A stretch of 64,000 bases of DNA, taken from assembly GCA_016213735.1 (NCBI GenBank), contig JACQZU010000015.1, positions 1 to 64,000 on the forward strand. Direction: 5' to 3'. The stretch's first letter is position 1. Every line of letters begins with the position of its first letter. Of this stretch, positions 3,126 to 34,846 are shown piece after piece. Both the position numbers and the translations under genes were made by a program. Under the pieces are notes generated by a model that was given only the letters and a program-made list of their open reading frames with translations, did not search any database and was not told the DNA's origin. Source of the stretch: Acidobacteriota bacterium. Lineage in GTDB: Bacteria; Acidobacteriota; Holophagae; Holophagales; Holophagaceae.

Positions 3126-4007
3126 GTGGGCGTGCGGGCGGTCGAGTTCTTCTCCGGGGTCGGCGGGTGGCGTTACGCCCTCGGGACCCTGGGGGAGGTG
3201 GTCGCCGCCTACGACATCAGCCCCCACGCCAACCGTGTCTACAGCCACAACCACGGAGAATCCCCCCGGGAACGCGAGATCGCCTCCCTGCCGCTGGAGG
3301 AGGTGGAGGCCCACGGAACCGACCTGTGGCTCATGAGCCCGCCCTGTCAACCCACCTGCCGGATGGGGAACGGCCTGGACCTGGAGGATGCCCGCTCCAG
3401 GGCCTTCATCCACCTCATGGGAGCAATGAGGACCCTCCGGCCCAGTGCCGTGGTGCTCGAAAACGTGGCGGGTTTCCTCGGGTCGGGGTCCCACCGGCTG
3501 TTCCTGGAATCCGCCGGGGCTTCCGGGCTCCAGGTGACCTCCTTCCTGGGCTGCCCGACCGGCATGGGAATCCCGAACCAGAGGCCGCGGCTCTACCTGC
3601 TCGCGTCCCGCCGCGCGGCGGTGCTTCCGCCCCTCCCCGATTCAACGCCCAGACCCCTTTCCGACTTCCTGGACGAGGGGGAGGACCCAGGGCTCTACCT
3701 TCCACCCGAAGTCCTTGCGCGGCACAGGGGCGGGATGGACCTGGTGGAACCCGCGGATCGCAGGAGTTCCTGTTTCATCGGCGGCTACGGTCAGAAATTC
3801 GTGGGGGGTGGGTCCTTTCTGTCCACCTCCCTCGGGATCCGGCGATTCGCTCCCACGGAAATCGCCGCCCTTCTCGGATTCCCCGGGAGATTCTCCTTCC
3901 CGGCGGAGACGCCCAGGTCCAGCAGGTACAAGCTTCTGGGAAATTCCCTCTCGGTGACCATGGCTTCCTGGGTTCTGGATGCCTGGTGGGGAAGCATCAC
4001 TCACTGA
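3126..4007 (+). CDS. Dnmt2-type tRNA (cytosine-5) methyltransferase
   Basis: A single-domain C5-cytosine methyltransferase whose motifs match the Dnmt2/TRDMT1 family better than restriction methylases. It has SAM motif I FFSGVGG, motif IV SPPCQPTCRMG (catalytic Cys about 74), motif VI LENVAGF, motif VIII NQRPRLYLLA, a target-recognition block RRSSCFIGGYG aligned to the Dnmt2 CFT signature (Thr replaced by Ile), then RFAPTEIAALLGFP and motif X YKLLGNSLSV. Known Dnmt2 enzymes methylate C38 of tRNA(Asp), and the Geobacter homologue acts on tRNA(Glu), so tRNA is the likely substrate here. At 293 aa it is shorter than eukaryotic Dnmt2 (~390). The GTG start follows AAGGAG at 3112-3117. No restriction endonuclease gene is adjacent, and its end overlaps the convergent MFS gene by 7 bp. 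Confidence 0.82.
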   Translation: MGVRAVEFFSGVGGWRYALGTLGEVVAAYDISPHANRVYSHNHGESPREREIASLPLEEVEAHGTDLWLMSPPCQPTCRMGNGLDLEDARSRAFIHLMGAMRTLRPSAVVLENVAGFLGSGSHRLFLESAGASGLQVTSFLGCPTGMGIPNQRPRLYLLASRRAAVLPPLPDSTPRPLSDFLDEGEDPGLYLPPEVLARHRGGMDLVEPADRRSSCFIGGYGQKFVGGGSFLSTSLGIRRFAPTEIAALLGFPGRFSFPAETPRSSRYKLLGNSLSVTMASWVLDAWWGSITH

Positions 4008-5386: not shown

Positions 5387-7075
5387 ATGGCCCGACCGTC
5401 CGAGGAACAGCCCACGATCATCTATACGATGTCCAGGGTTTCCAAGATCTACAACGGGAGGACGGTGATCAAGGACATCTCCCTGGGTTATTACCACGGC
5501 GCCAAGATCGGCGTCCTTGGCCTGAACGGCGCCGGGAAGTCCACCGTGCTGCGGATCATGGCCGGGGTGGACGCCGATTTCAACGGGCACGCCATCCTGA
5601 GCAAGGGATTCACCACCGGGATGCTGGAACAGGACCCCCGTCTCGACGAATCGAAGACGGTCCGGGAACTGGTGGAGGAAGGGGCGGCGGAGAAGGTGGC
5701 GTGGCTGAAGGAGTACAACGAGATCAGCGAACGGTTCTCGGATCCGGACGCGGACATGGACAAGCTGCTGGCCCGGCAGGGAGAACTGCAGGACAAGATC
5801 GATGCCGCCGGGTGCTGGGACCTGGACAGCCAACTGGAGCAGGCCATGGACGCCCTGCGCTGCCCCGATCCGGAAACGCCCGTGAAGGTCCTCTCCGGCG
5901 GCGAGCGGCGGCGGGTCGCCCTCTGCCGCCTGCTGCTCCAGAAGCCCGACATCCTCCTGCTGGACGAGCCCACCAACCACCTGGACGCGGAAACCGTGGC
6001 GTGGCTGGAGAAGCACCTCCAGGAGTATCCAGGCACCGTCATCGCCGTCACCCACGACCGCTATTTCCTGGACCACGTGGCCGAGTGGATCCTCGAGCTG
6101 GACCGAGGGGAGGGCGTTCCCTGGAAGGGGAACTACTCATCCTGGCTGGAGCAGAAGAAGGCCCGGCTGGCCCAGGAGGAGCGGCAGGACCAGAAGCGGC
6201 AGAAGACCCTGGAGCGGGAGCTGGACTGGATCCGCATGAGTCCGAAGGGACAGCACGCCAAGAGCAAGGCGAGGATCGCGAACTACGAGAAGCTGGCCGC
6301 GGTGGAAGGGGCCCAGCGGGAGCAGGAACTGGAAATCTACATTCCCTCGGGACCCCGGCTGGGAGAGCTGGTGGCCGAGCTTCGCGGGGTCTCCAAGGCC
6401 TACGGAGATCGCGTCCTCTTCGAGGGCCTGAGCTTCGACATCCCCCGGGGAGGGATCCTCGGAGTCATCGGCCCCAACGGAGCCGGCAAGACCACCTTGC
6501 TGCGCCTCCTCACCTCCCAGGAACAGCCGGATTCGGGGAGCATCCGCCTGGGCGAGACGGTCAAGATGGCCCATGTGGATCAGCTCCGGGCCAGCCTCCG
6601 AACGGACGCGAGCGTCTTCGAGGCGGTGAGCGGAGGCTACGAAATGATCGAGCTGGGGGGCCGGGAGATCAATGCCCGGGCGTGGCTCTCGAGGTTCGGG
6701 TTCCGAGGCGACGAGCAGCAGAAAAAGGTGGGGGAGCTCAGCGGCGGCCAGCAGAACCGCCTCAACCTCGCGCTGACGCTTCGGAGTGAAGCCAACCTCC
6801 TCTTCTTCGACGAGCCCACCAACGACCTGGACGTGAACACCATGCGGGCCCTGGAGGAATCCATCGAGGCGTGTCCGGGCAGCGCCGTGATCGTCAGCCA
6901 CGACCGCTGGTTCCTCGACCGCCTGGCCACGCACATCCTGGCCTTCGAGGGGGATTCCAGGGTGGAATTCTTCGACGGGAACTACACCCAGTACGAGCAG
7001 TACCGCCAGGATGTGCTCGGCCTCAAACCCTTCGATCCCCACCGGATCAAGTACCGCAAGCTGACGAGGGGATGA
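5387..7075 (+). CDS. ettA: Energy-dependent translational throttle protein EttA (ABC-F)
   Basis: A soluble ABC-F ATPase that binds the ribosomal E site and gates the first elongation step according to the ATP/ADP ratio. The 562-aa protein has two ABC domains: Walker A GLNGAGKST (45-53), signature LSGGERRRVA and Walker B ILLLDEPTNHLD in the first, and GPNGAGKTT, LSGGQQNRLN and LLFFDEPTNDLD in the second. A charged linker (about 240-305) with the WIRMSPKGQHAKSKAR block lies between them and is characteristic of EttA rather than Uup. The start is preceded by AGGGA. Its stop overlaps the start of the next gene, so the two are probably translationally coupled. Confidence 0.95.
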   Translation: MARPSEEQPTIIYTMSRVSKIYNGRTVIKDISLGYYHGAKIGVLGLNGAGKSTVLRIMAGVDADFNGHAILSKGFTTGMLEQDPRLDESKTVRELVEEGAAEKVAWLKEYNEISERFSDPDADMDKLLARQGELQDKIDAAGCWDLDSQLEQAMDALRCPDPETPVKVLSGGERRRVALCRLLLQKPDILLLDEPTNHLDAETVAWLEKHLQEYPGTVIAVTHDRYFLDHVAEWILELDRGEGVPWKGNYSSWLEQKKARLAQEERQDQKRQKTLERELDWIRMSPKGQHAKSKARIANYEKLAAVEGAQREQELEIYIPSGPRLGELVAELRGVSKAYGDRVLFEGLSFDIPRGGILGVIGPNGAGKTTLLRLLTSQEQPDSGSIRLGETVKMAHVDQLRASLRTDASVFEAVSGGYEMIELGGREINARAWLSRFGFRGDEQQKKVGELSGGQQNRLNLALTLRSEANLLFFDEPTNDLDVNTMRALEESIEACPGSAVIVSHDRWFLDRLATHILAFEGDSRVEFFDGNYTQYEQYRQDVLGLKPFDPHRIKYRKLTRG

Positions 7076-7653
7076 TGCGGCTGCTGCTGGCTGCCTTCCC
7101 CCCCGAGCTGGGCCCGCTCCTGGAACGGCCGCCCCAGGGCTGGCGGACGGGGCTCACGGGGATCGGCGCCCTCAGGACCGCGGTGTCCGTGGCGCGGATG
7201 CTGGCCTCGGCTCCGGTGGAGGAGGTGCTCATGCTGGGCACCTGTGGCACCTACGATGCCCTGAAGGTTGCCGTTGGGGAGTTCGCCACCACGGACCGCG
7301 TGATCGCCGCGTCGGTGGAAGAGGCCAGGCGATCCGCCTACCGGCCGGCGTTGGAATCCACGGCATGGCCCCTGGATCCTCTCCCCGGCCTTCCTGTGTT
7401 CACCGTGGTGGGGACCCCCGCCGTGACGGCCACACCGGAGGGGGCCCGGGACCTGGGCGCCCTGGGTGCCCTCGAGCACCTGGAACTCCCCGGGGTTGCC
7501 GAGGCCTGCCGGCAAGCGGGGGTGCGCTGCAGGGCGGCCCTTGCCGTGGCCAACCAGGTCGGGCCGGATGCCGAGGTCCAGTGGAGGACCCATCACGCCG
7601 AGGTCAGCTCAGGACTCATTCGCTTCCTGGTGGGGCAGGGGGCTTTCGGCTGA
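7072..7653 (+). CDS. Nucleoside phosphorylase-superfamily protein (futalosine hydrolase / MTAN-like)
   Basis: The 193-aa product has the fold signatures of PNP/MTA-nucleosidase family enzymes: an N-terminal hydrophobic strand, GIGALRTAVSVARML, the glycine-rich EVLMLGTCGTYDALKVAVG with a following DRV, and a C-terminal VANQVGPDAEVQW that resembles the SNxVGxRDxxxW element of futalosine hydrolase (MqnB). A conserved Glu lies in HLELPGVAEAC, where the family places the ribose-binding Glu. It therefore probably cleaves an N-glycosidic bond; MqnB in menaquinone synthesis is one option, MTA/SAH nucleosidase another. ATG at 7072 (or 7075) overlaps the ettA stop. It is shorter than MTAN (~230 aa). 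Confidence 0.6.
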   Translation: MMRLLLAAFPPELGPLLERPPQGWRTGLTGIGALRTAVSVARMLASAPVEEVLMLGTCGTYDALKVAVGEFATTDRVIAASVEEARRSAYRPALESTAWPLDPLPGLPVFTVVGTPAVTATPEGARDLGALGALEHLELPGVAEACRQAGVRCRAALAVANQVGPDAEVQWRTHHAEVSSGLIRFLVGQGAFG

Positions 7654-9958
7654 CGAGCCCTTGGCCTCCCGTGCCGGACAGGACCGTCCAGCCGGCCCCG
7701 GTGGCCAGCACCCGAACCCCCTTCTCCGGGCCGGTCACGAAGGTAGGAATGCCCTGGACGGCGAAGCGGCCAAGCGTGGCGGCATGAGGATGGCCGAAGG
7801 GATTCCGCCTGCCGGCGCATACGAGCGCAAGGTCCGGGCCCAGGGCCCGGATCCAGGGTTCCGTGGAGGCGTTCCCTCCGCCGTGGTGGCCAGCCTTCAG
7901 GAGACGCTGCAGGCCGTTCCGAGGGGGGTCACCCAGATCGAGAAGGTCGCCTTCCTGAATGTCCAGGGCATCTCCCATCAGCCACAGTTCGCGGTCTTTC
8001 CAAACCACGCGCAGCACCAGGGAGACCATGTTGGGGTCCGGGAGGCGGTAGGCCTTGGGGGGCCACATCACATGGAAACGCCCCTCACCCCTGGTCCATT
8101 CCTCCCCGCGCCGGCTGGGCCAGGGAAGGGGCCCACCCGCCGGGGCAAAGGGACCCCAATCCCCGGAGTCCGCCAGTTCCGGAACTCGGACGGATGCGAA
8201 GGGGCGCAAGCGGGCCAGGGTTGACCATCCGCCTGCATGGTCTCCGTGGGGGTGGGTCAGCACGAGGTGGAGCGGCTCATGGACCCCTCGCCGGCTCAAG
8301 ACCCGAGCGAGGCGCCTCGCGGCCCAGGGGTTGGGACCCGTGTCCACCAGGGTGGCGTCTCCGCCGGGAATGCGGAGGATGAGGGCATCCCCCTGACCCA
8401 CGTCCAACGCTTCGAGTTCCAGGGTCCTGGCAGGCCTGCCGAGGCCCCGGGTGCCGAGGAGGGTGAAGGACGCGACTCCCAGGACCAACAGCAGGGCCCG
8501 GGTTCTGCGCCAGGTCCCCTGGGCATGGGCCAGGGCCAGCCATCCCGCCGCCAGCAGAGACCAGGCCCAGGGACAGGCGGTCGCCAGGGGGGTGATGTGG
8601 CCGAAGAGGGGGACCACCTTTTCCCCCGTCCAGGCAAGGGCCGCGCCCAAGGTGGGCGTGATGCCTGGAACAGGCAGCAGGGTGAGGAACAGGCAAACGG
8701 GGGTCAGGACGCTCACGAGGGGAAGGACCAGCAGGTTCGCGAAGACCCCGAAGGTGGGGACTCCCCCGTGGAACAGGGCCAGCAGGGGCAGGGTGGTCAG
8801 CCAGGGCGCCAGGAGCCTGGCCAAGGGGAGGGAGAAGTCTCCGAGGAGCGGGCGCAGGAAGGCCCCGAGGGGTTCGGCGGCCCAGAGGAGGCCCAGGAGG
8901 GCCCACCAGGCCAGGAGGAATCCCGGGTCCGCCCCGCAGGCCGGGTGCAGGAGCATCCAGGCGCCCAGGGCTCCGTGGAGCCCCCAGGCCGGGGGCAGCT
9001 TCCAGCCCGTCCCTCGGCCCAGGGCCCAGGCGAGACCCATGGCCAGCCCGCGCCATACCGGCGCGGAGAAACCCACCAGGGCCGCGTAGAGCAATCCGGC
9101 GGTGCAGGCGGCGAGTGAGGCGCCGCGCCGGAAGAGGCGCCGGCGCCACAGGGCCTCCACCGCCGCCATCACGAGCGTCACCTGCAGCCCGGAAACCACC
9201 AGGGTGTGGATGGTCCCGCTTTCCACAAATGGACTGGTGGCCTCCTCCCTGGCTGGCGGGATTCCCAGGGTCAGGGCCCCCCACAGATCCCGCGCGGTGC
9301 CCGCTGGGAGGGGCAGGGCCTCGAAGCGACTCCGGACGAAGGCTTGGAGGCGGAGGAGGGGCCCCGGTTCCGGCGGCCCGAGGCGCTCGAACTGGAGGGA
9401 GGAAGCCAGGGCGACCCTGCGGGGGAGGCCCTCTCCGCGCGCCCGCCAGAGGGGACGCTCCCCGAGGAAGCGGGGGGCGGGTTCCACGGCCCGCAGATCC
9501 CCCAGGAAACGGACCGGGGTGCCCGGTCCCGGGGGTGCCTCCCCATCCAGGGGCAGGGTGACCGGGATGTCCAGGCCCGCCAGGGCGGGAGGGGACCAAA
9601 GGCTGACGCGACCCCGCCGGACGCTCCCTTCCGGAGTCCAAACGCTGGAGACCCGGCCTTCCAACCGAAGGAGCCCCACAGGCAGGGACCTCTCCCTGGA
9701 GGCGAGACGCCCCAGGCCGAGCAGGGCCGCCCAGAGCGCAAACACCAGGAGTGGAACGGCCTTCCACCTTCGCGTCTTCACCAAGGGCAGGAGCAGGATG
9801 GAAGGGAGCCAACCCAGGATGGGGAACCAAGTCGGCAAGTGCCCGTCCCAGGTCTCCGGAAGAAGCCAGGGGAGGGAACAGATGGCGGCCATGGTCCAGG
9901 CCAAGGGCCAAGCCTGCGGGGCGCCGGACCTCCGCCAGAGAGATTCCCGGGTGAGCAT
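7616..9958 (-). CDS. comEC: ComEC/Rec2 DNA uptake channel
   Basis: Inner-membrane channel that carries single-stranded DNA into the cytoplasm during natural transformation. The 780-aa protein has an N-terminal DUF4131-like segment with membrane helices, a central polytopic Competence domain (about 210-490), and a C-terminal metallo-beta-lactamase domain with LTHPHGDHAGG (about residue 565), the predicted nuclease. Full-length ComEC proteins with this domain order are 700-850 aa. The start has TAAACT exactly six bases upstream and no clear Shine-Dalgarno, suggesting a leaderless transcript. Its 3' end overlaps the preceding convergent gene by 38 bp. Confidence 0.93.
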   Translation of the reverse strand: MLTRESLWRRSGAPQAWPLAWTMAAICSLPWLLPETWDGHLPTWFPILGWLPSILLLPLVKTRRWKAVPLLVFALWAALLGLGRLASRERSLPVGLLRLEGRVSSVWTPEGSVRRGRVSLWSPPALAGLDIPVTLPLDGEAPPGPGTPVRFLGDLRAVEPAPRFLGERPLWRARGEGLPRRVALASSLQFERLGPPEPGPLLRLQAFVRSRFEALPLPAGTARDLWGALTLGIPPAREEATSPFVESGTIHTLVVSGLQVTLVMAAVEALWRRRLFRRGASLAACTAGLLYAALVGFSAPVWRGLAMGLAWALGRGTGWKLPPAWGLHGALGAWMLLHPACGADPGFLLAWWALLGLLWAAEPLGAFLRPLLGDFSLPLARLLAPWLTTLPLLALFHGGVPTFGVFANLLVLPLVSVLTPVCLFLTLLPVPGITPTLGAALAWTGEKVVPLFGHITPLATACPWAWSLLAAGWLALAHAQGTWRRTRALLLVLGVASFTLLGTRGLGRPARTLELEALDVGQGDALILRIPGGDATLVDTGPNPWAARRLARVLSRRGVHEPLHLVLTHPHGDHAGGWSTLARLRPFASVRVPELADSGDWGPFAPAGGPLPWPSRRGEEWTRGEGRFHVMWPPKAYRLPDPNMVSLVLRVVWKDRELWLMGDALDIQEGDLLDLGDPPRNGLQRLLKAGHHGGGNASTEPWIRALGPDLALVCAGRRNPFGHPHAATLGRFAVQGIPTFVTGPEKGVRVLATGAGWTVLSGTGGQGLVSRKPPAPPGSE

Positions 9959-9964
9959 TTCCCG

Positions 9965-9970
9965 AGTTTA
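9965..9970 (-). promoter_or_regulatory. -10-like box TAAACT of comEC
   Basis: TAAACT read on the minus strand ends six bases before the comEC ATG. A transcript started from it would begin at or beside the start codon. No good -35 element is visible. Confidence 0.5.
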
Positions 9971-10007
9971 GGCAAGGATTTGGAGGGAACGAGGAATCGT
10001 CGAAAGC

Positions 10008-10036
10008 TTGACAGGTCCTGGGTCCTCCCGAATAGT
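10008..10036 (+). promoter_or_regulatory. Sigma-70-type promoter of the response regulator gene
   Basis: A perfect TTGACA (10008-10013) is separated by 17 bases from AATAGT (10031-10036), which matches TATAAT at four of six positions. The -10 box ends seven bases before the ATG at 10044, so the mRNA should be leaderless or nearly so. Confidence 0.65.
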
Positions 10037-10043
10037 GCCTGTC

Positions 10044-11438
10044 ATGGCCCCCTCACCCCTCAGGATCCTCCTCGTGGACGACGACCCCACGATCCTGGAA
10101 TCGGTGTCGGGACTCCTGGCCCGCCACGGGCAGGATGTGGTCCGGACGGGCTCGGGGCTTCGGGCGGCCCGTTACCTCGCGGATGAGCGCTTCGACCTGG
10201 TGGTGGTGGACCTCATGCTGCCCGACTACCACGGATTGGACCTTGCCCGGAAGGCGGTGAGCCTTCCCGATACCGTGGTGGTGGTGGTCTCGGGGACCAC
10301 CTCGGTGGAACTCGTGATCGAAACCATGAGGCTGGGGATCATGGATTTCATCCCCAAGCCCTTCCGCGTGGCGGAACTGGAAGCCGCCCTCGTGCGGGCC
10401 CTGGAGCGGGCTGCGGCTCATCGGGAAGCTCGTCGCAGCATGGAAGAGGAGGACCTGACCCCGGGAGAAGTGATCATCGGGAACAGCCCGGCCATCCAGG
10501 ATCTGCGCGCACTTTTGCGCCGGGTGGCGCCCTCCGGGTCCACGGTCCTGATCACGGGACCTTCCGGCACGGGGAAGGAACTGGTGGCGCGGACGCTTCA
10601 TCGCCTGAGCCCGAGGCGCGGGGGACCCTTCGTGGCCATCCACTGCGGGGCCATCCCGGAGAACCTGCTGGAGGACGAACTGTTCGGGCACGTCAGGGGG
10701 GCTTTCACCGATGCCAGCTCCGACCGCCTGGGCCGATTCCAGCAGGCCAACGGCGGGACCCTGTTCCTCGACGAAATCGGGACCATGCCCATGGGGCTCC
10801 AGGTGAAGCTCCTCCGGGTGCTCCAGGAGCGGGAGGTCTCCCCCCTGGGTTCGCCCAGGGTGGCGCGGGTGGACATTCGCGTGGTGGCGGCCACCAATGA
10901 GGACCTCCTCCAGCTGGTGGCCCAGAAGGGCTTCCGGGAGGACCTCTTCTACCGCCTCAACGTCCTCCCCATCCATCTCCTGCCTTTGCGGGATCACGCC
11001 TCCGACATTCCCATCCTGGTCTCCCACTTCGTCCGCCGCTTCTCCAGGCAGCTGCAGCTTCCGCCCAAGCTCGTGGATCCGGCCGTCCTGCGCCGGCTCG
11101 AGCAGTACACCTGGCCCGGCAACGTGCGGGAGCTGGAGAATGTGGTGGAGCGGGCCATGGCCCTGGGGACCTCGCCGGACCGCCTGGCCTTGCAGGACCT
11201 TCCGCCCGAGATCTCCGGCCTCCCCGACACCGGGCACGAGTACACCCTTCCCGCCCGGACGGACCTGGACGAGTTCCTGGGATCGGTGGAGCGGCGGCTG
11301 ATCCGGGAAGCACTCAGCGAATGTCACGGGAACAAGAGCGAGGCCTCCCGGCGCCTGGGGATGCGGCGCACCACCCTGCTCCACCGCCTCAAGGTCCTTG
11401 GCATCGAGGATGTGAATCCGGTCGGAGGGAACCCATGA
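10044..11438 (+). CDS. Sigma-54-dependent response regulator (NtrC family)
   Basis: A 464-aa two-component regulator expected to activate RNA polymerase-sigma54. It has a receiver domain with DDD at 12-14, phospho-acceptor Asp about 56 (VVVDLMLPDYHG) and KP near 107. The AAA+ domain has Walker A GPSGTGKE (171-178), Walker B GGTLFLDEIG, the arginine-finger block FREDLFYRLNV and WPGNVRELENV. A Fis-type HTH (ALSECHGNKSEASRRLGM) ends the protein. The sigma54-contact loop reads GAFTDA (219-224) instead of GAFTGA. The ATG at 10044 is preferred because a good promoter ends seven bases upstream. The stop overlaps the next start (ATGA). No partner histidine kinase is in the window. Confidence 0.93.
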   Translation: MAPSPLRILLVDDDPTILESVSGLLARHGQDVVRTGSGLRAARYLADERFDLVVVDLMLPDYHGLDLARKAVSLPDTVVVVVSGTTSVELVIETMRLGIMDFIPKPFRVAELEAALVRALERAAAHREARRSMEEEDLTPGEVIIGNSPAIQDLRALLRRVAPSGSTVLITGPSGTGKELVARTLHRLSPRRGGPFVAIHCGAIPENLLEDELFGHVRGAFTDASSDRLGRFQQANGGTLFLDEIGTMPMGLQVKLLRVLQEREVSPLGSPRVARVDIRVVAATNEDLLQLVAQKGFREDLFYRLNVLPIHLLPLRDHASDIPILVSHFVRRFSRQLQLPPKLVDPAVLRRLEQYTWPGNVRELENVVERAMALGTSPDRLALQDLPPEISGLPDTGHEYTLPARTDLDEFLGSVERRLIREALSECHGNKSEASRRLGMRRTTLLHRLKVLGIEDVNPVGGNP

Positions 11439-12103
11439 CCCGGAGCTTCATCGCGGCCTGGCTCGCCCTGATTCCCCTGGGAGCCTGGAGCCCGGCCGTC
11501 CACGAAATCCAGACCAAACTTGCCGCCCGGATGATCCCCTCACCCCTCGCCGCCATGCTCCATTCCCAGAGGGAAGCCCTGCTCGAATCGGCCCGGGGCC
11601 TTCCAAGCGACGAAGCTCCCACGCTCGAGGACGTAAGGGCCCAATACCTCCGGATCCGGAGGGTGAGCGGCGCCCATCCGACCCCCCGTCGTCTCGCGGT
11701 GGAACTGGGCCTCCTTGGACACCTCGTGCAGACGCTGACGGACCCGGGCGCCACCCGGGGGATGACCCCCCTCCGGGAGGCCTTTACGGCTTTTGCGGAC
11801 GAGAACCTGGGGAAATTGGTCCTCACCCGTGCCCCGGTCTGGGCCAAGGACGGCGGGTTCGACCTCGGGCCCCACCTGGAGGCCTGGGTTCGGGAGAAAT
11901 CCGAGAGGCACCAGCGGATCCTGGAGCAATTCGACCAGGCCAACGGGGCCAGGCTTGGAGACTGGGGAGAACTTTCCATCCCCTTCGCCCAACTCCAACT
12001 GTCCTTCTGCAGCGGGGTCCATGCCACCGCGAACCTCTGGATCCTCCTCTGGAGGGAGGTCGGGGACCTCTGGCCCGTCCCCGCGGAGTCCCCGGCCCGC
12101 TAG
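11435..12103 (+). CDS. Secreted protein, weakly similar to zinc-dependent phospholipase C / S1-P1 nuclease fold
   Basis: A 222-aa protein with an N-terminal hydrophobic leader (AAWLALIPLGAW) that looks like a signal peptide. Mature-region features recall the helical zinc PLC/P1 nuclease fold: WSPAVHEIQTKLAARMI near the N terminus, ELGLLGHLVQTLTDPG in the middle and SGVHATANLWILLW near the end, each with a histidine in a plausible metal-ligand position. Zinc ligands are not all evident, so activity is uncertain. It overlaps the response regulator stop by 4 bp and is probably co-transcribed with it. I do not recognise a specific family name. Confidence 0.5.
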   Translation: MTRSFIAAWLALIPLGAWSPAVHEIQTKLAARMIPSPLAAMLHSQREALLESARGLPSDEAPTLEDVRAQYLRIRRVSGAHPTPRRLAVELGLLGHLVQTLTDPGATRGMTPLREAFTAFADENLGKLVLTRAPVWAKDGGFDLGPHLEAWVREKSERHQRILEQFDQANGARLGDWGELSIPFAQLQLSFCSGVHATANLWILLWREVGDLWPVPAESPAR

Positions 12104-26949: not shown

Positions 26950-29900
26950 GTGCACGAAAAACATTCTGCGCCACGGCCACCCCGGTGCTCGGGGAGCTCC
27001 CTTCTATGGGCGTTCCTCATCACCATCCTGGCCTTGGGATGTTCAAGCACGGCCGCCGAGCGCACCACCCTCGCCGGAGGCGGTGGGACCGGCGGGGTTC
27101 ACCCCGCGGGTTGGCTGAACGTCCATGCCGGGCAGGCCCTGAAGGCCATCGAATACTGCAAGCAGTGCCATGAAATGAGTTCCCTCCGGCAAGGCAGTGG
27201 GGTCCCCTCCTGCCAGGCCTCGGATTGCCACCACCGCTCCACTCCCGGGTGGCAGACGCCCGGATTGCATGGGCTTCGCGCCAAGGAGGCCTTCACCGCG
27301 AGCGGCGGGAGTCTGGTCTCCTGCCAGCTCTGCCATGGGACGGATTTCCGGGGAGGGGGCGCGGGGGTTTCCTGCGCGAGCTGCCATTCTGTGCAGGCCC
27401 CCCATCCGCACAAGCCCTGGCGCGGCACGGGCCTCACCCATGCCACCGTGGATCCCTCCAATGCCCCGGTGTGCGCCCAGTGCCACTTTCCGGGTTCAGG
27501 CGCGAATCCGGCGAACCACCCCCCGACGCCTGCGCCGGCCGGAGCCTCTCCCAGCTGCTTCAACAACACCATGTGCCACGGCGCCAATGTGGCGCCCCAT
27601 CCCCTCGGCTCCCTCTGGAAGGACCCCACCAGCCTCGCTTTCCACGGCTTCGAGGCGAAGAAGGACCTGCTCTACTGCCAGTCCTGCCATGGGACGCCGG
27701 GCACCACGAAATTCGACGGCGGTTCAGCCTCCACGGCCTGCTCCTCCTGCCACAAGCAGGCCGGGGCCCATTCCCTGCCCTGGTACGCGGACCCCGTCCA
27801 GGCCTTCCCGGGCTACGTCCCCTCGCACCGCGATGCCCTGAAGCAGGAGAGCGCCTGCGCCGCCTGCCACGACTTCACCAAGGGCCGCACCCCCCCCAAT
27901 CCCGCCTCCCCCAGCTGCTTCTCAGCCAGCCGCAACAGCGTGGGGTGCCACGCGAACGGCCCGGGCCAGGCCAACCACCCCATTCCCTTCACTGGAACGG
28001 CCCACACGGGGGCCGACCAGGCAGCCTTCAACGCGAATTGCCGTTCCTGTCATGCGACCTCCGGGGCCTCCCCTCTGCCTGCGGCGCCCTTGTGCTCCAC
28101 CTGCCATCAGTCCGGGTCGCCCCTCACCACCCCCAACTGCGCCTCCTGCCACGGGAGACCCCCGGCCGGTTCCAGCTTCCCGAACGTCGCCGGAGTCCAC
28201 GCCAAGCACGATGCTCTGTCCGAGGTCGCAGGGACCTGCGCGACCTGCCATGACAAGTCCGATTCAGGCACCCTGGTCCACTACGACCACGCCAATGGCC
28301 GCCCCGGGCGGGACGGATTGCGGACACCCCCTGCACCCGTCGGCTTCCCTGGAACCTTCGACGCCAAGGCAGGGAAGGGGACCTTCGACCCGGCGACCCT
28401 CACCTGCAGCAACGTGAGCTGCCATGGGGGCATCAAGACCCCGAGCTGGCAGGGCGGAAGCATCAATTCCGCCGCCGATGCCGGGTGCCGGCAATGCCAC
28501 ACCCTGGGGACCTCCGCCGGCGTCCCCGAGTCCAACAGCCCCTATTCGGGGAATCACGCCCTCCACCTGGGCAGCAAAGTGAATGCCCTGTGCACGGACT
28601 GCCACGCCATGGGCAACGGCAGCGCGGGGGCCCGGAACCACTTCAAATTCATGGGCACGCCCCAGATGGAAGGGCCCTCCAAGGACACCGTCTGGCCCAT
28701 GGGGAATGCAGCCTACTACAACGCGACCACCCAGAGCTGCGGGACCTTCACCTGTCATGAGCACCTGCACAGCAATGTCCCCTGGACCGGCGGGGCCTCC
28801 CACGCGGTGCCCTACCTGGGGACGGGCCACTTCGACGCCACGCCATCCGCCTTCGACGCCACCTGCAAGACCTGCCACGGCGTGAGCGGAGCTTCACCCA
28901 TTGCGGCGGCTCCCACCTGTTCCGCCTGCCACCAGGCGTCCTCGCCCCTCACCGCGACCAACTGCACCTCCTGCCACTCCAGGCCTCCGGGGGGCACCAC
29001 ATTCCCGGATGCCGCCGGGAGGCACCCCAAGCACAACGGGCTGCCCGAACTGGCCAACGCCTGCGGCGGTTGCCATGCAAGCTCGGATTCAGGAACCTTG
29101 GTCCACTACGACCACGCCAATGGCAGGCCCGGGAAGGATGCCCTCCGGGTTCCCCCGGCCCCGGTCCAGATCCCCTCGATCTACAACGCCAAGGGCGGAC
29201 CGGCCTCCTTCGATCCTTCCACCCTGACCTGTTCCAGCGTGAGCTGCCACGGGGCCATCAAGACCCCCAACTGGACCACCGGGAGCATCGACAGCAGCGC
29301 CGACGCGGGCTGCCGAAGCTGCCATTCCCTTGGAACTGCCCAGGGGGCTCCCGAGGCCAACAGCCTCTACTCGGGGCTGCACGCCCTTCACCTCGGGACC
29401 GGCGTGAAGGCCCTATGCACGGAATGCCACGCCATGGGCAACGGCAGCGTGGGGGCTGGCAACCACTTCAAGTTCATGGGGACCTCCAAGATGGAAGGGC
29501 CCGCCAGCGACACCGTCTGGCCCATGGGGAACGCCTCCTACTACAACGCCACCAACCAGACCTGCGGCACCTTCACCTGCCACGGGGAACTGCACAACGG
29601 CAATTCCTGGACCGGGGGCGCGAACCACGCGATCCCCTACCTCGACCCGGCCCACACGGGGGTCAACGCGGGCGGTTTCGACTCGAACTGCAAAAACTGC
29701 CACGGGCTCAGCGGAAGCTCCCCCCTGGCGGCCGCACCCACCTGCTCGGCCTGCCACAAGGCTGCCTCGCCCCTCACGGCCGTGAACTGCACTTCCTGCC
29801 ACGGCAGACCTCCGGCAGGTTCCGCCTTCCCGGACGTCGCAGGGAAGCACGCCAGGCACAATGCCCTGCCTGAGTTGGCCAATGCCTGCGCTCCCTGCCA

Positions 29901-31248
29901 CTCGGGGACCGACTCGGGCAGCCAGGTCCACTATGACCACGCCAACGGCCGGCCGGGCAAGGATGCCCTCAGGGTGCCGCCGGGGGAGGTCTCATTCCTT
30001 TCATCCTTCAATGCCAAGAGCGGGCCCGCGTCCTTCAACCCCTCGGCCCTCACCTGCAGCAGCGTCAGCTGCCACGGGGGGGTCCTGGCCCCCAGCTGGA
30101 CCACGGGAAGCATTTCCTCCAACACGGACGCGGGCTGCCGCCAATGCCACGTCCTCGGAACCGCCCAGGGCGTCCCCCAGTACAACAGCCCCTACTCCGG
30201 CGGCCACGCCCTCCACCTGGGGGCCGGGGTGAATGCCCTGTGCACCGAGTGCCACTCCATGGCCAATGGCACGGTCGGAGCCAACAACCACTTCCGGTTC
30301 ATGGGGACCACGGCCATGGAAGGGCCCGCCAGCGACACCGTCTGGCCCCTGGGCACGGCCTCCTACTATCGCGCTGCGAACCAGACTTGCGGCACCTTCA
30401 CCTGCCATGGCCAGGTCCACACGGACTTCCCTTGGAAGGAAGGGGCCAACCACGCCGTGCCCTACCTCGCCTCGGCCCACACGACGGTGAATCAGGCGAA
30501 CTTCGACGCGAATTGCCGGACCTGCCACGGCGTCAGCGGCAGTTCGCCCATGACCCTGGCGCCTACCTGCAGCGCCTGTCACCAAAAGTCTTCTCCCCTC
30601 GCCGTCACCAACTGCGCCTCCTGCCACGCCAAGCCCCCCACCGGCACCGTCTTCCCCGAGATCGCCGGGACCCACGCGGTCCACAACGGCTTCCCCGGCG
30701 TCACCGGAACCTGCGGGGCCTGCCACCAGGGATCCGATTCCGGAACCCAGATCCATTACGACCACGCCAACGGCCGTCCCGGCAAGGACGCCCTCAGGGT
30801 CGGGCCAGGAGAGGTGGCCTTCCTGTCGGCCTACAACGCCAAGAGCGGGTCTGCCTCGTTCAACCCCTCCACGCTCACCTGCGCCACCGTGAGTTGCCAT
30901 GGGGGTCAGACCACCCCCAACTGGCGCAGCGGCTCCATCGACGTCAACACGCAGTGCGCCGCCTGCCACAGCATCGGGACCTCCCAGTACAACAGCTTCA
31001 ATTCCGGGGAGCATCGCCTCCACGCCGTGGACAAGGGATACCCCTGCAGCGACTGCCACTCCATGACCAACGGCACTCCGGGGGCCAACAATCACTTCGC
31101 CTTCCTCGGGACCTCCGCCATGGAGGGACCCGCCGCGGACACCATCACTTTCTCCGCGGCCGTCACCGGGGCCCGCACCTACAACCGCAACACCCGGCAG
31201 TGCACCCTGACCTGCCACAACCAGAACCACAACCCGGAGACGTGGTGA
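26950..31248 (+). CDS. Giant multiheme c-type cytochrome (about 40 hemes, four octaheme modules)
   Basis: A 1432-aa exported cytochrome with a signal sequence ending LITILALGC (possible lipoprotein). I count 31 CXXCH, 8 CX4CH and three looser sites (CX5CH, CX9CH, CX3CH), so about 39-42 hemes. The alternating CX4CH...CXXCH pattern is the one catalogued in Geobacter cytochromes. After a 10-motif N-terminal part, four octaheme modules start at residues 364, 639, 914 and 1189, exactly 275 aa (825 bp) apart; the last is shortened. Each carries VHYDHANGRPG, SVSCHG-type, HALHLG, GNHFKFMG-type and CGTFTCH blocks. The likely role is extracellular or outer-membrane electron transfer. The GTG start follows AGGGG. 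First gene of a four-gene operon. Confidence 0.9.
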   Translation: MHEKHSAPRPPRCSGSSLLWAFLITILALGCSSTAAERTTLAGGGGTGGVHPAGWLNVHAGQALKAIEYCKQCHEMSSLRQGSGVPSCQASDCHHRSTPGWQTPGLHGLRAKEAFTASGGSLVSCQLCHGTDFRGGGAGVSCASCHSVQAPHPHKPWRGTGLTHATVDPSNAPVCAQCHFPGSGANPANHPPTPAPAGASPSCFNNTMCHGANVAPHPLGSLWKDPTSLAFHGFEAKKDLLYCQSCHGTPGTTKFDGGSASTACSSCHKQAGAHSLPWYADPVQAFPGYVPSHRDALKQESACAACHDFTKGRTPPNPASPSCFSASRNSVGCHANGPGQANHPIPFTGTAHTGADQAAFNANCRSCHATSGASPLPAAPLCSTCHQSGSPLTTPNCASCHGRPPAGSSFPNVAGVHAKHDALSEVAGTCATCHDKSDSGTLVHYDHANGRPGRDGLRTPPAPVGFPGTFDAKAGKGTFDPATLTCSNVSCHGGIKTPSWQGGSINSAADAGCRQCHTLGTSAGVPESNSPYSGNHALHLGSKVNALCTDCHAMGNGSAGARNHFKFMGTPQMEGPSKDTVWPMGNAAYYNATTQSCGTFTCHEHLHSNVPWTGGASHAVPYLGTGHFDATPSAFDATCKTCHGVSGASPIAAAPTCSACHQASSPLTATNCTSCHSRPPGGTTFPDAAGRHPKHNGLPELANACGGCHASSDSGTLVHYDHANGRPGKDALRVPPAPVQIPSIYNAKGGPASFDPSTLTCSSVSCHGAIKTPNWTTGSIDSSADAGCRSCHSLGTAQGAPEANSLYSGLHALHLGTGVKALCTECHAMGNGSVGAGNHFKFMGTSKMEGPASDTVWPMGNASYYNATNQTCGTFTCHGELHNGNSWTGGANHAIPYLDPAHTGVNAGGFDSNCKNCHGLSGSSPLAAAPTCSACHKAASPLTAVNCTSCHGRPPAGSAFPDVAGKHARHNALPELANACAPCHSGTDSGSQVHYDHANGRPGKDALRVPPGEVSFLSSFNAKSGPASFNPSALTCSSVSCHGGVLAPSWTTGSISSNTDAGCRQCHVLGTAQGVPQYNSPYSGGHALHLGAGVNALCTECHSMANGTVGANNHFRFMGTTAMEGPASDTVWPLGTASYYRAANQTCGTFTCHGQVHTDFPWKEGANHAVPYLASAHTTVNQANFDANCRTCHGVSGSSPMTLAPTCSACHQKSSPLAVTNCASCHAKPPTGTVFPEIAGTHAVHNGFPGVTGTCGACHQGSDSGTQIHYDHANGRPGKDALRVGPGEVAFLSAYNAKSGSASFNPSTLTCATVSCHGGQTTPNWRSGSIDVNTQCAACHSIGTSQYNSFNSGEHRLHAVDKGYPCSDCHSMTNGTPGANNHFAFLGTSAMEGPAADTITFSAAVTGARTYNRNTRQCTLTCHNQNHNPETW
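28039..31248 (+). repeat. Four tandem 825-bp octaheme modules within the cytochrome gene
   Basis: Equivalent cysteine codons of the first heme of each module lie at 28039, 28864, 29689 and 30514, each exactly 825 bp apart. Three full units and a shortened fourth unit (735 bp to the stop) follow one another in frame with no linker. Similarity is obvious at protein level and in many DNA stretches. Confidence 0.9.
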
Positions 31249-31292
31249 TGCCCCGAGCCACCCCAGGACCGTCTCCCCATTTTGGAGTCACC

Positions 31293-31655
31293 ATGCGCCA
31301 CCTCCCGCACCCCCTCCTCGCCGCCCTCCTCCTGGCCGGGTCTCTCCTGGCGGGCGCAGACCCGGCCAAGGACATCCCCAAGTTCCAGGGGGGGGACCTC
31401 CAGAAGTACTGGATGGATGCCTGCGCCCGTTGCCACGGCGTCAATGGAAACGGCCGCGACAATTCGGGGCGCCCTCTCCCCGACGCCGGCTTCGATTTCA
31501 CGGACAGCCGCAAGGCGAACAAGAAGAAGGACAGCGATTGGATCAAGGTCACCCTGGAAGGAAAGGACAAGATGCCCGCCTTCAAGGACAAGATGAGCGA
31601 GGCCGACGTCGCGAAGATGACCACGGAAATCGTCCGCAAGTTCGCCGCCAAGTAG
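31293..31655 (+). CDS. Small periplasmic monoheme cytochrome c
   Basis: A 120-aa class I cytochrome. A signal peptide (LLAALLLAGSLLAGA) is followed by one heme site CARCHGVNGNG, a RPLPDAGFDFTD block typical of small cytochromes of the c6/cbb3 type, and a Met in KMPAFKDKM as probable sixth ligand. It would shuttle electrons in the periplasm. The ATG at 31293 has GGAG 5-6 nt upstream; an upstream in-frame ATG (31248) would spoil the signal peptide. It lies 44 bp after the giant cytochrome. Confidence 0.88.
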   Translation: MRHLPHPLLAALLLAGSLLAGADPAKDIPKFQGGDLQKYWMDACARCHGVNGNGRDNSGRPLPDAGFDFTDSRKANKKKDSDWIKVTLEGKDKMPAFKDKMSEADVAKMTTEIVRKFAAK

Positions 31656-31671
31656 TCCCGAAAGGATGATG

Positions 31672-32478
31672 ATGCCCACCATTCCCTCCCGGATCCTTCC
31701 GCTCGCCCTTTCCGCCACCTGTCTGCTGGGGGAATCCTCCGAGTACCCCGTCAACCTCAACCTCCCCTCCACGGAGCGGATGCAGTTCTGGGACATCGGG
31801 ATCCTTTTCTCCCACCGCTTCCTGTCCGCGGTCCAGGGCCACGGGAAGGACCTCTACGGCCTGGACGGGTTCGCCTACGCCGGGTTCGGGGTCGGCTTTG
31901 GCATCAAACCCATTCCGGGGATGAATGTCCTGCTGTACCGCACGGCGGACAACAAGACCTTCGTGGCCGGTCTCCAGCAGCAGCTCTTCGACAAGAGCCT
32001 CGCCCGGGCGGCCCTTCGGATCGAGCGGTTCGACGAGACGGTGCCCCATCTGAAGAACGAGATCGGGGAAGTGGGCATCAGCGGGACGGTGGTTCAGCTT
32101 CCGGTTGATGTGTTCCTCGGAGACTACGTCATCGTCAACCTGGTCCCGACCTACCTGAGCCGAACCACCACCCAGGAGAAGCCGGTGTTCAATGCCGGCG
32201 TGGGGCTGAGGCTCCTGTTCACCGACAAGTTCAATTTCGTCGGGGAGTACTACCCCCGGCCCTCCAAAATCGCCAAGACCTTCAAGCCTGGCTGGGCCGC
32301 CGGATTCTCCTACAAGACCTTCAAGCACCGATTCTCCCTTTTCGGGACGAACAACCCCTCCACGACGGCCAACCAGGTCCTCTCGGGGGACTACGGAACC
32401 GGCCCCGGGAACTACACCTCGAGTTCGAAGAACCAGGGCACCTGGTCCATCGGATTCAATGTCGCACGCGTTTTCTGA
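31672..32478 (+). CDS. Outer-membrane beta-barrel protein (DUF5777-like)
   Basis: A 268-aa exported protein with a short signal peptide. The mature part opens with LNLPSTERMQFWDIGILFSHRF and continues with alternating amphipathic strands: FGVGFGIKPIPGMNVLLYR, FNAGVGLRLLFTDKFNFVGEYYPRP and a C-terminal ...IGFNVARVF ending in Phe, as in outer-membrane barrels. This resembles the DUF5777 barrel family, often encoded with cytochromes. It could hold or receive electrons from the neighbouring cytochromes in the outer membrane; that role is inferred from context. Three ATGs are in a row; the third (31672) gives AAAGG the right spacing. Confidence 0.7.
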   Translation: MPTIPSRILPLALSATCLLGESSEYPVNLNLPSTERMQFWDIGILFSHRFLSAVQGHGKDLYGLDGFAYAGFGVGFGIKPIPGMNVLLYRTADNKTFVAGLQQQLFDKSLARAALRIERFDETVPHLKNEIGEVGISGTVVQLPVDVFLGDYVIVNLVPTYLSRTTTQEKPVFNAGVGLRLLFTDKFNFVGEYYPRPSKIAKTFKPGWAAGFSYKTFKHRFSLFGTNNPSTTANQVLSGDYGTGPGNYTSSSKNQGTWSIGFNVARVF

Positions 32479-32493
32479 ACCACAGGAGGCACG

Positions 32494-33549
32494 ATGATCG
32501 CCCTCGCCAGCCCATTCATGGAATTTGTCGCCAGGGAACACCCGGCCCTCGTCCACCTTCCCCTCGGGCTGGTGGTGGCCCTTCCCATCGCGATGCTCGT
32601 CTCCTTCCGCTCCCGGCATGCCCATGCCTGGAAACTGACCGCCACCTTCATGGCCGGCCTCGCCTGGGCCAGCAGCGCCGTGGCCCTGTTCAGCGGCCTT
32701 CTCTGGGGCCGGCAGATCAATCTGATTCCGCCAGGGAATTTCCTGCCCGTGGTGGCCTCCGAGAAGCAGGTGCTGCAACGCATGCTCCAACTGCACGAGC
32801 TGACCGCGCTGGCAGGAGTGCTGGTGGGTGGGGTCTGCCTCGCCTTCCTGGTGCGCTCCCTCCGGATGGAGTCCGAACGCATCGACACTCCGACCCAGCC
32901 AGGAACCGAACCCGGCCCGCGCCGGCGGAGCGCCCTGCGCCGCATCTCCGACCGAGGCGTGGGGGTCCCGGCCATGATGCTGAGCTTGCTCTGGATTGGG
33001 GCCTGGGGGTTCTGCGGGAAGCTGGGTGGGATCATGGTCTTCGGCAACGAGGAAACCAACAAGGCCGCCGCGGAGCAGGAAGCCAAACGAAAGAACGACG
33101 TGGAGGCCGAACTCCCGATCCGGGCCCTGGACTATGGCAGTCTTGAACCCGTCGAACCCGGTCCCATACGGAGCGCCGCCCACGGGAACCGGTGGCGGCG
33201 CACATGGGTGACCGCCTCGGGCATTGATGCCTACAAATCCGGGAAGCCCCTTCCCGCGGGAGCCTACGTGGTGCTCAGCACCTTCGAGGACGAAAAGGGA
33301 AGGCCCGGGCATGAATTGGGGCCGCTCTACATGAAGGAAACGCGTTCCGACGGCTCCACGGCCTTCGCCTTCTACTGGCCCCGGGTCCCCGAGGGGCGGC
33401 GGACCGAGGTGGGGGGCGAGGAGACCGTCTACTGGCGGAGCCCGGATCCAAAGCTCGTGGTTTGCACGGGTTGCCATGAGAAAAATGGGGCCGGGCAGGG
33501 TCCCGCCGGGGGCGTCGGGGCCAAACAGGTGGCCGCCTTGAAACACTGA
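32494..33549 (+). CDS. DUF2231 membrane domain fused to a P460-like c-type heme domain
   Basis: A 351-aa inner-membrane protein. The N-terminal half has HPALVHLPLGLVVALP and three more hydrophobic segments (to about 190), with the conserved histidines of DUF2231 (HPALVH, LQLHELTALAGV), which may bind heme b. The C-terminal half is periplasmic and resembles cytochrome P460: WVTASGIDAYKSGKPLPAG, LGPLYMKET, FYWPRVPEGRRTEVG and one heme site CTGCHEKNG close to the C terminus. A quinol-oxidising or electron-relay role at the inner membrane is plausible. It lies 15 bp after the barrel gene and ends the operon. Confidence 0.72.
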   Translation: MIALASPFMEFVAREHPALVHLPLGLVVALPIAMLVSFRSRHAHAWKLTATFMAGLAWASSAVALFSGLLWGRQINLIPPGNFLPVVASEKQVLQRMLQLHELTALAGVLVGGVCLAFLVRSLRMESERIDTPTQPGTEPGPRRRSALRRISDRGVGVPAMMLSLLWIGAWGFCGKLGGIMVFGNEETNKAAAEQEAKRKNDVEAELPIRALDYGSLEPVEPGPIRSAAHGNRWRRTWVTASGIDAYKSGKPLPAGAYVVLSTFEDEKGRPGHELGPLYMKETRSDGSTAFAFYWPRVPEGRRTEVGGEETVYWRSPDPKLVVCTGCHEKNGAGQGPAGGVGAKQVAALKH

Positions 33550-33628: not shown

Positions 33629-34846
33629 ATGCGGCTCCTGCTCGTGGAGGACAAGGACAGCTTCCGGCGGATGCTGGAGAAGGCCATCCCGCCATCCCTG
33701 TGGGAGACCGTGTCCCTGGCCGATCCCCTTGAGGCCCTGACCCACCTCGAACGGGATCCTTTCGATGTCCTACTGACGGACCTCCGCCTCCCGGGAATCT
33801 CCGGCCTCGACCTCCTCCGCAGGGCCCGGCGCATCAGGCCACAGCTCCGCTGTGTCCTGATGAGTGCCTTCGGAGAACCCCGGGACATCGTCGAGGCCAT
33901 CCGCTCGGGGGCCGACGAATTCCTGCCCAAGCCCTTCGACCTCGATCAGCTGTTGGGCATCCTGGAACGCCTCCGGGGCCTCATGGCGGCTCCGCCCCCG
34001 GATCCCAGGGAGGCATGGGTGGCGCAGTCCCCCGCCTCCAAGGAATGGGCCTCCGGGTTGCTTCGGGCCTCCGAACACCGGCTCCCGGTCCTGCTCTGCG
34101 GAGAACCGGGGGTCGGCCGAGCCCGGGGAGCCCGCCGGATCCACACCCTGGGGCAGCCAGGGACTCCCTACCTCGTCCGCCAGGCCTGGGAACTGGACCC
34201 CTGCAGGCTCGAGGAGGACCTCCTCCTGGCCCGGGGAGGAACCCTTTTCCTTCCGGACCTGGATCGGATGGGGGACCCCGATGCCTCCAACCTCATCCGG
34301 GCCATGGATGGCCCGGCGGGTTCGGGGCTCCGGTGGATCGCCTCCAGCCGCCACCCTGCGGGCCTCCAGGGTCCCCTCGGGACCCGCTTCGGAGCGCTCA
34401 GGTTCTACCTACCACCCCTCCGGGACCGGCGGGAAGACATCCTTCCCCTGCTCATGACCTTTCTCCAGGCCCAGGCCAAGGCGGAAGGCCGTCCTCTCCC
34501 CATCCTCGACCGTGCCGCGGAACAGGAGGCCTTGGATCATTCCTGGCCGGGCAACGCGGAAGAACTCGCCGCCTGCGCGGCCGCTTCGCTTCGTGCCACG
34601 GAGGGCCTCCGGATCCGTCGCCTGACCTTTCCTGGGAGCGGAAGTCAGATGGTGCTCCCCTGGCCCGCGGATGGAGACCTCGAGGGCATGCTCAAGTCGG
34701 TGCGGGCCCAGGCGGAGGCGGCACTTCTCCGCCGGGCCCTGGATTCCGCGGGCGGCGACCTGGGCGCCGCGGCCCATGCCTTGGGGCTCACCCTCAGGGT
34801 GCTGGGGCAGAGACTCCGGGAAAACGGCATCGACCTCGAATCCTGA
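33629..34846 (+). CDS. Response regulator with degenerate sigma-54 AAA+ domain
   Basis: A 405-aa NtrC-like protein. The receiver is intact (acidic pair at 7-8, phospho-acceptor Asp51 in LLTDLRLPG, Lys in LPKPFD). The AAA+ domain is clearly homologous (ARGGTLFL, LPPLRDRREDILPLL, HSWPGNAEELA) but decayed: Walker A reads GEPGVGRARGA, losing the lysine; Walker B reads LFLPDLD instead of LFLDEI; and the GAFTGA region is deleted. A Fis-like HTH remains (LLRRALDSAGGDLGAAAHALGL). It should bind DNA and phosphate but not hydrolyse ATP or remodel sigma54. It lies 79 bp after the cytochrome operon, which makes that operon a possible target. Confidence 0.8.
   Translation: MRLLLVEDKDSFRRMLEKAIPPSLWETVSLADPLEALTHLERDPFDVLLTDLRLPGISGLDLLRRARRIRPQLRCVLMSAFGEPRDIVEAIRSGADEFLPKPFDLDQLLGILERLRGLMAAPPPDPREAWVAQSPASKEWASGLLRASEHRLPVLLCGEPGVGRARGARRIHTLGQPGTPYLVRQAWELDPCRLEEDLLLARGGTLFLPDLDRMGDPDASNLIRAMDGPAGSGLRWIASSRHPAGLQGPLGTRFGALRFYLPPLRDRREDILPLLMTFLQAQAKAEGRPLPILDRAAEQEALDHSWPGNAEELAACAAASLRATEGLRIRRLTFPGSGSQMVLPWPADGDLEGMLKSVRAQAEAALLRRALDSAGGDLGAAAHALGLTLRVLGQRLRENGIDLES

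Follow-up and report, generated by a model that had tools for sequence, protein, structure and literature searches.

A conserved four-gene envelope module in Holophagaceae that looks like an electron-handling unit with a DUF5777 barrel

We analysed a 64,000-nucleotide stretch of DNA (the window) from a genome of the acidobacterial family Holophagaceae. Four neighbouring genes, A, B, C and D, occupy window positions 26950-33549, and ORF calling placed all four on the + strand with gaps of 44, 16 and 15 bp, exactly as a first-pass annotation of the same DNA had stated. The features of the locus are as follows.

26950..31248, + strand: gene A, multiheme c-type lipoprotein, 1432 aa, GTG start (PF14522, TIGR01904)
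26950..27042, + strand: signal peptide of A with lipobox LALGC (Cys31), then SS, no Asp at +2 (sequence)
27958..31245, + strand: four tandem octaheme repeats of ~275 aa in A (repeat comparison, heme spacing)
31293..31655, + strand: gene B, exported class I monoheme cytochrome c, 120 aa (PF13442, 3.3e-9)
31422-31436, + strand: heme motif CARCH of B (sequence)
31672..32478, + strand: gene C, DUF5777 outer-membrane beta-barrel, 268 aa (PF19089, AlphaFold2, Foldseek)
32494..33549, + strand: gene D, DUF2231 protein with four transmembrane segments and a C-terminal monoheme domain of the P460 superfamily
32494..33015, + strand: DUF2231 part of D (invariant columns, hydropathy, superfamily alignment)
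33463-33477, + strand: heme motif CTGCH of D (sequence)

Gene A encodes 42 CH heme-type motifs (31 CxxCH, eight Cx4CH, and one each of Cx3CH, Cx5CH and Cx9CH), 40 of which have a spacer of 2–4 residues, in agreement with the exported cytochrome of ~40 hemes annotated initially. The protein matched PF14522 Cytochrome_C7 at 4.3e-26 and the TIGR01904 CxxxxCH/CxxCH domain at 1.9e-21. Its signal peptide closes in a lipobox, indicating that A is a lipoprotein; a lipobox-like N terminus is found in most A relatives, and the sequence appears compatible with outer-membrane sorting. The repeats, which run from residue 337 on and start at 27958, 28783, 29608 and 30433, share 51–71% pairwise identity, the fourth diverging toward its end. 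A relatives contain 14 to 44 CH motifs (mostly 14, 18, 22 or 30 in Geothrix, with a few uncertain starts), which argues that A is a modular chain, and its length varies threefold between species. Searching A against the sequences of solved structures gave no PDB match at E<=0.01, the filament cytochromes OmcS, OmcZ and OmcE included.

The small exported monoheme cytochrome proposed for the second gene was borne out: B exceeded the cut-offs of both PF13442 and PF00034, and its nearest solved relatives are cytochromes c-552. Gene C, for which an alternative in-frame ATG lies at 31666, matched PF19089 DUF5777 at 1.2e-18 (67.7 bits against a curated cut-off of 23.1). An AlphaFold2 model based on 44 sequences (pLDDT 78) is an outer-membrane-type barrel of ~12 strands, the kind of protein that had been expected here. 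Foldseek matched this model to generic small porins (OmpG, NanC and an oligogalacturonate porin, with TM-scores up to 0.55/0.68), so the strand count is only approximate, and the C profile matched no PDB chain among the sequences of solved structures. By standard barrel geometry the backbone radius is near 11 Å for 12 strands and about 24 Å for 26 strands, the number in the MtrB barrel (PMC7198977). The ~12 modelled strands and the radius near 11 Å make a heme wire inside C unlikely; in its model, C looks too narrow to sheath a multiheme cytochrome.

The initial description of D as a DUF2231-P460 heme protein was examined in its two parts. The window protein itself matched DUF2231 (PF09990) at E 0.023 and 15.2 bits, below the Pfam cut-off of 26.4, and all 12 aligned D members matched the family at E<=1 (best 6.7e-8), which makes a DUF2231 part probable. 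The P460 part is supported by fold and weakly by sequence, Pfam P460 being matched weakly by 3/12 aligned members (best 0.014). The top Foldseek match of the full-length D model, which is of low confidence (pLDDT 71, pTM 0.45), was cytochrome c'-beta 7s5o (E 0.005, prob 1.00), with cytochrome P460 8gar fourth; these modest statistics suggest a P460/c'-beta fold for the C-terminal domain. D had no match among the sequences of solved structures. Transmembrane segments are predicted at about residues 18-36, 52-70, 102-120 and 156-174 by hydropathy and superfamily alignment. Because of heme attachment, the C-terminal CxxCH must face the periplasm, and the predicted topology puts His16, His21 and His101 on this heme-domain side of the membrane. 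D proteins keep these three histidines and the CxxCH without exception; the stand-alone paralogue D2 (see below) and the small DUF2231 paralogues largely share the H-x4-H motif and the last of the histidines. The histidines may bind heme b or quinone; we know of no DUF2231 protein with demonstrated binding of either. Stand-alone paralogues of D, with a DUF2231 part and a C-terminal heme, were also seen (L179:9481-10479, L112:9307-10272 and equivalents), and in Geothrix this paralogue adjoins a 139-aa histidine-rich protein and a rhodanese protein with a CxxCH motif.

Scanning a genome collection (84,980 species) with an alignment of C gave 48 loci, all from Holophagaceae, Geothrix or Acidobacteria MAGs. 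Conservation of gene order in relatives had been set beforehand as a test of the conduit proposed from the first reading. Among the loci with closer C, all 28 named Holophagaceae/Geothrix loci (L056-L083, including L080, in which a contig end truncates D) carried A-B-C-D contiguously, on a single strand and in identical order, with gaps of 29-87 bp (A-B), 11-49 bp (B-C) and 3-108 bp (C-D). With the order kept in every close locus, the arrangement is not due to chance, and together with the short gaps it indicates one functional, operon-like unit. The set also occurs in further genome loci flanked by other genes, which argues that the unit itself is kept and not its neighbourhood. Of 396 Acidobacteriota genomes sampled, 22 had D matches at E<1e-150, every one of them from the window's own family, and C and D distances correlated with r=0.88, the sequences being related and thus non-independent. 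From its sequences, A-D looks like a co-inherited electron-handling module of the cell envelope in these soil and sediment bacteria.

Promoter and terminator scans at the module gave no signal exceeding that of shuffles. The response regulator at 33629-34846 was rejected as a regulator of the module, its adjacency to D not being conserved in relatives. In Geothrix loci L059-L081, a divergent response regulator and a large protein of ~970 aa adjoin the module upstream of A and are possibly a two-component system controlling it; this pair is missing beside the window's copy.

DUF5777 extends well beyond this family, with matches above the cut-off in 86/297 sampled Acidobacteriota genomes. We inspected 20 DUF5777 loci outside Holophagaceae, a non-random set taken mostly from the best-scoring matches. 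Seven of these barrels have a heme-c motif fused N-terminally, as in L146, a single chain that joins PF13442 (the family of B) to PF19089 (that of C), and eight more have a small heme gene directly upstream on the same strand. Heme-c was therefore fused to or directly upstream of 15/20 barrels, against 3/146 other genes in the same stretches (counting small heme-motif genes). The other five barrels were without an adjacent heme gene, and two of them have a fused cupredoxin (cupredoxin-DUF5777 fusions in L155 and L157). The fused barrels, whether with heme-c or cupredoxin, fall within Acidobacteriota loci L140-L159. L052 (8462-10927) was dropped as a cytochrome-barrel fusion; the frame of its barrel gene breaks near the upstream heme domain and continues into the following gene, probably through sequence errors.

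Holophagaceae also carry a second type of set, in which a C-type barrel is accompanied by a small DUF2231 protein together with a monoheme cytochrome, a Rieske protein or both. One such set is present in the window's own genome.

L046 (own genome, C7), 8411-10204: divergent DUF2231 protein, C-type barrel and monoheme cytochrome, no giant cytochrome

These sets resemble the module in having a homologous barrel, a DUF2231 protein and a one-electron carrier; they differ in that the giant cytochrome is absent, the DUF2231 protein has no heme domain and the strands are sometimes mixed. Fusions, gene pairs and paralogous sets show DUF5777 barrels repeatedly tied to one-electron carriers in Acidobacteriota, and this tie is our firmest new inference.

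Among characterised systems, Cyc2 is similar in associating one heme-c domain with a small outer-membrane barrel, and the C relatives of other Acidobacteriota include single-chain fusions with the heme domain N-terminal, as in Cyc2. By contrast, B and C themselves are separate genes 16 bp apart, fusions being confined to C relatives. C has ~12 predicted strands against the 16 predicted for Cyc2 (PMC8406198), a comparison of architecture and not of sequence; B is a full class I cytochrome, and the module has A, a giant multiheme lipoprotein, and the inner-membrane DUF2231 protein D in addition. MtrCAB/PioAB likewise cluster barrel and cytochrome genes, and A is a multiheme lipoprotein like MtrC; however, the ~12 strands of C compare with 26 in MtrB, no similarity of C to solved MtrB was detectable, and the module is without an MtrA-like partner. 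The MtrB/PioB-family barrel TIGR03509 had no match in the window's genome at E<=10. The Geobacter OmbB-OmaB-OmcB and Ext systems also combine a porin-like protein with a multiheme lipoprotein, whereas the module has a DUF5777 barrel and, in place of a periplasmic multiheme partner, the monoheme B. A shares TIGR01904 and Cytochrome_C7 matches with multiheme cytochromes such as those of Geobacter, from which it differs in its 42 motifs arranged in 275-aa octaheme repeats. With no TIGR03509 match and no PDB match for A, including the OmcS/OmcZ/OmcE nanowire cytochromes, the annotated distinctness from MtrCAB and from solved nanowire cytochromes held. We consider it a tentative possibility, somewhat below an even chance, that DUF5777 barrels form a class of cytochrome-barrel redox units of their own, second to and independent of Cyc2, which is spread through Acidobacteriota as fusions or gene pairs with monoheme, cupredoxin or Rieske carriers; in Holophagaceae, this core would have grown into a complete electron pathway across the envelope through the addition of a modular giant cytochrome and, on the quinol side, a DUF2231-P460 protein.

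The module is probably one among several envelope electron routes. G. fermentans DSM 14018 is a known Fe(III) reducer. In its draft genome the only D-type match is D2, and a single C-type barrel, L087, was found, which belongs to the simple type. A hidden cluster around D2 was ruled out, as D2 stands alone. On this draft sequence the four-gene module is likely absent, and it is probably dispensable for Fe(III)/electrode respiration in this species. The window's own genome contains a separate porin-cytochrome cluster.

L174 (own genome, C15), 6070-11531: porin-like protein, two pentahemes and an OmcA/MtrC cytochrome

This cluster consists of a 469-aa porin-like protein without a Pfam match, the two pentaheme proteins and a 957-aa decaheme lipoprotein of the OmcA/MtrC family with a collagen-like stretch (TIGR03507, 416 bits), and fits the Geobacter porin-cytochrome kind far better than the module does. 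Published metatranscriptomics also reports homologues of extEFG and mtrF for a Holophaga, and attributes the same potential to a Geothrix (PMC11748539). The G. fermentans data, the OmcA/MtrC cluster and this report together argue that the module is not the sole conduit. In the same genome (C1), L177:8421-11552 encodes a 1043-aa cytochrome with 42 CxxCH in doubled-CXXCH repeats beside a pentaheme protein; this giant heme protein is unrelated to gene A.

The best explanation, which we put at just short of an even chance, is a Cyc2-like module, split and extended, that links the quinone pool to a cytochrome-guarded outer-membrane pore. Cyc2, with a single heme at the periplasmic opening of its barrel and a substrate that enters the pore, is a precedent for such a periplasmic cytochrome plug (PMC8406198) and supports this split-Cyc2 arrangement. 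D would exchange electrons with menaquinol close to where the inner membrane faces the periplasm, using the conserved histidines and the heme on that side. Fixed to the outer membrane, A would bridge the periplasm to D and carry electrons across it through its 14-44 hemes. B would dock where the narrow barrel C opens to the periplasm, and a small redox partner (a chelated metal ion, flavin or quinone shuttle) may enter through C and exchange electrons with B. The analysis shows the four proteins with their domains, the kept order, the tie of DUF5777 barrels to heme proteins and the predicted size of the barrel; the quinol chemistry at D, the localisation of A, the docking of B with C and the small-molecule substrate are what we infer here. 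Electron export for respiration is likelier than uptake such as Fe(II) oxidation, because the Holophagaceae/Geothrix family includes known Fe(III) reducers. Several points count against the split-Cyc2 reading: 42 hemes look like too many for a bridge confined to the periplasm, A varies threefold in length, the D model is of low confidence, and 5/20 sampled barrels have no adjacent heme gene, two of these five carrying the fused cupredoxin. The heme domain of D moreover resembles cytochromes c'-beta and P460, proteins that in many cases bind gases or act as catalysts instead of relaying electrons, and this counts against a relay role.

A rather unlikely arrangement places A on the cell surface, where it would reduce insoluble acceptors directly, with B and C crossing the outer membrane and D feeding electrons in. 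It would accommodate the compatibility of the A lipoprotein with outer-membrane sorting, its compact multiheme chain of modular length, the conserved four-gene unit and the Fe(III) and electrode respirers of the host family, but ~12 strands in C and one heme in B would leave no heme chain across the membrane. By analogy, the single heme of Cyc2 is argued not to span it (PMC8406198), and the searches made in G. fermentans gave no close homologue of D and C. The originally proposed single conduit thus survives as one operon-like unit of electron-transfer proteins with an inner-to-outer-membrane layout, while its continuous wire to the outside is weakened by the strand number of C, by G. fermentans, in which the module is probably not required, and by the separate OmcA/MtrC cluster; nothing in the present analysis shows A to be extracellular. 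Periplasmic redox chemistry or detoxification of a small molecule such as NO, hydroxylamine or a metal oxyanion, entering through C and reacting at the heme of D while the cytochromes supply or remove electrons, is quite unlikely. The top structural matches of the D C-terminal domain, c'-beta and P460, and the Geothrix stand-alone paralogue beside the histidine-rich and rhodanese proteins speak for it; against it, no heme-domain lysine is among the invariant D residues and the P460 heme crosslink requires one, and a partner of 14-44 hemes would be unusual. Very unlikely is a role for C as a pore that secretes or anchors A at the cell surface, B and D then being a separate respiratory pair: A and C do share a cluster, and Foldseek also found C structurally similar to the amyloid secretion barrel FapF, but FapF is just one of many generic barrel matches, genomes that have no A still show members of the C family linked to small redox domains or fused with them, and DUF5777-DUF2231 sets likewise occur without A.

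A literature search found no paper mentioning DUF5777 and none on DUF2231 with a cytochrome and barrel, the sole DUF2231 mention being a cysteine database paper. Nor was a description of the four-gene set found; subscription papers and preprints were mostly outside the search, so a prior description is possible. The association of DUF5777 barrels with one-electron carriers, widespread in Acidobacteriota, is apparently undescribed. Envelope electron transfer in Geothrix and its relatives is poorly described, although these bacteria are common in metal-reducing sediments and bioanodes, and the module offers a specific, conserved and deletable four-gene target; cultured Geothrix that carry it include G. 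oryzisoli and G. paludis. Naturally occurring versions of A, with 14 to 44 heme motifs, would let the effect of wire length be tested. Elsewhere in the window, 3126-4007 encodes a lone C-5 cytosine methylase-like protein (PF00145), whose small size suggests a Dnmt2-type enzyme.
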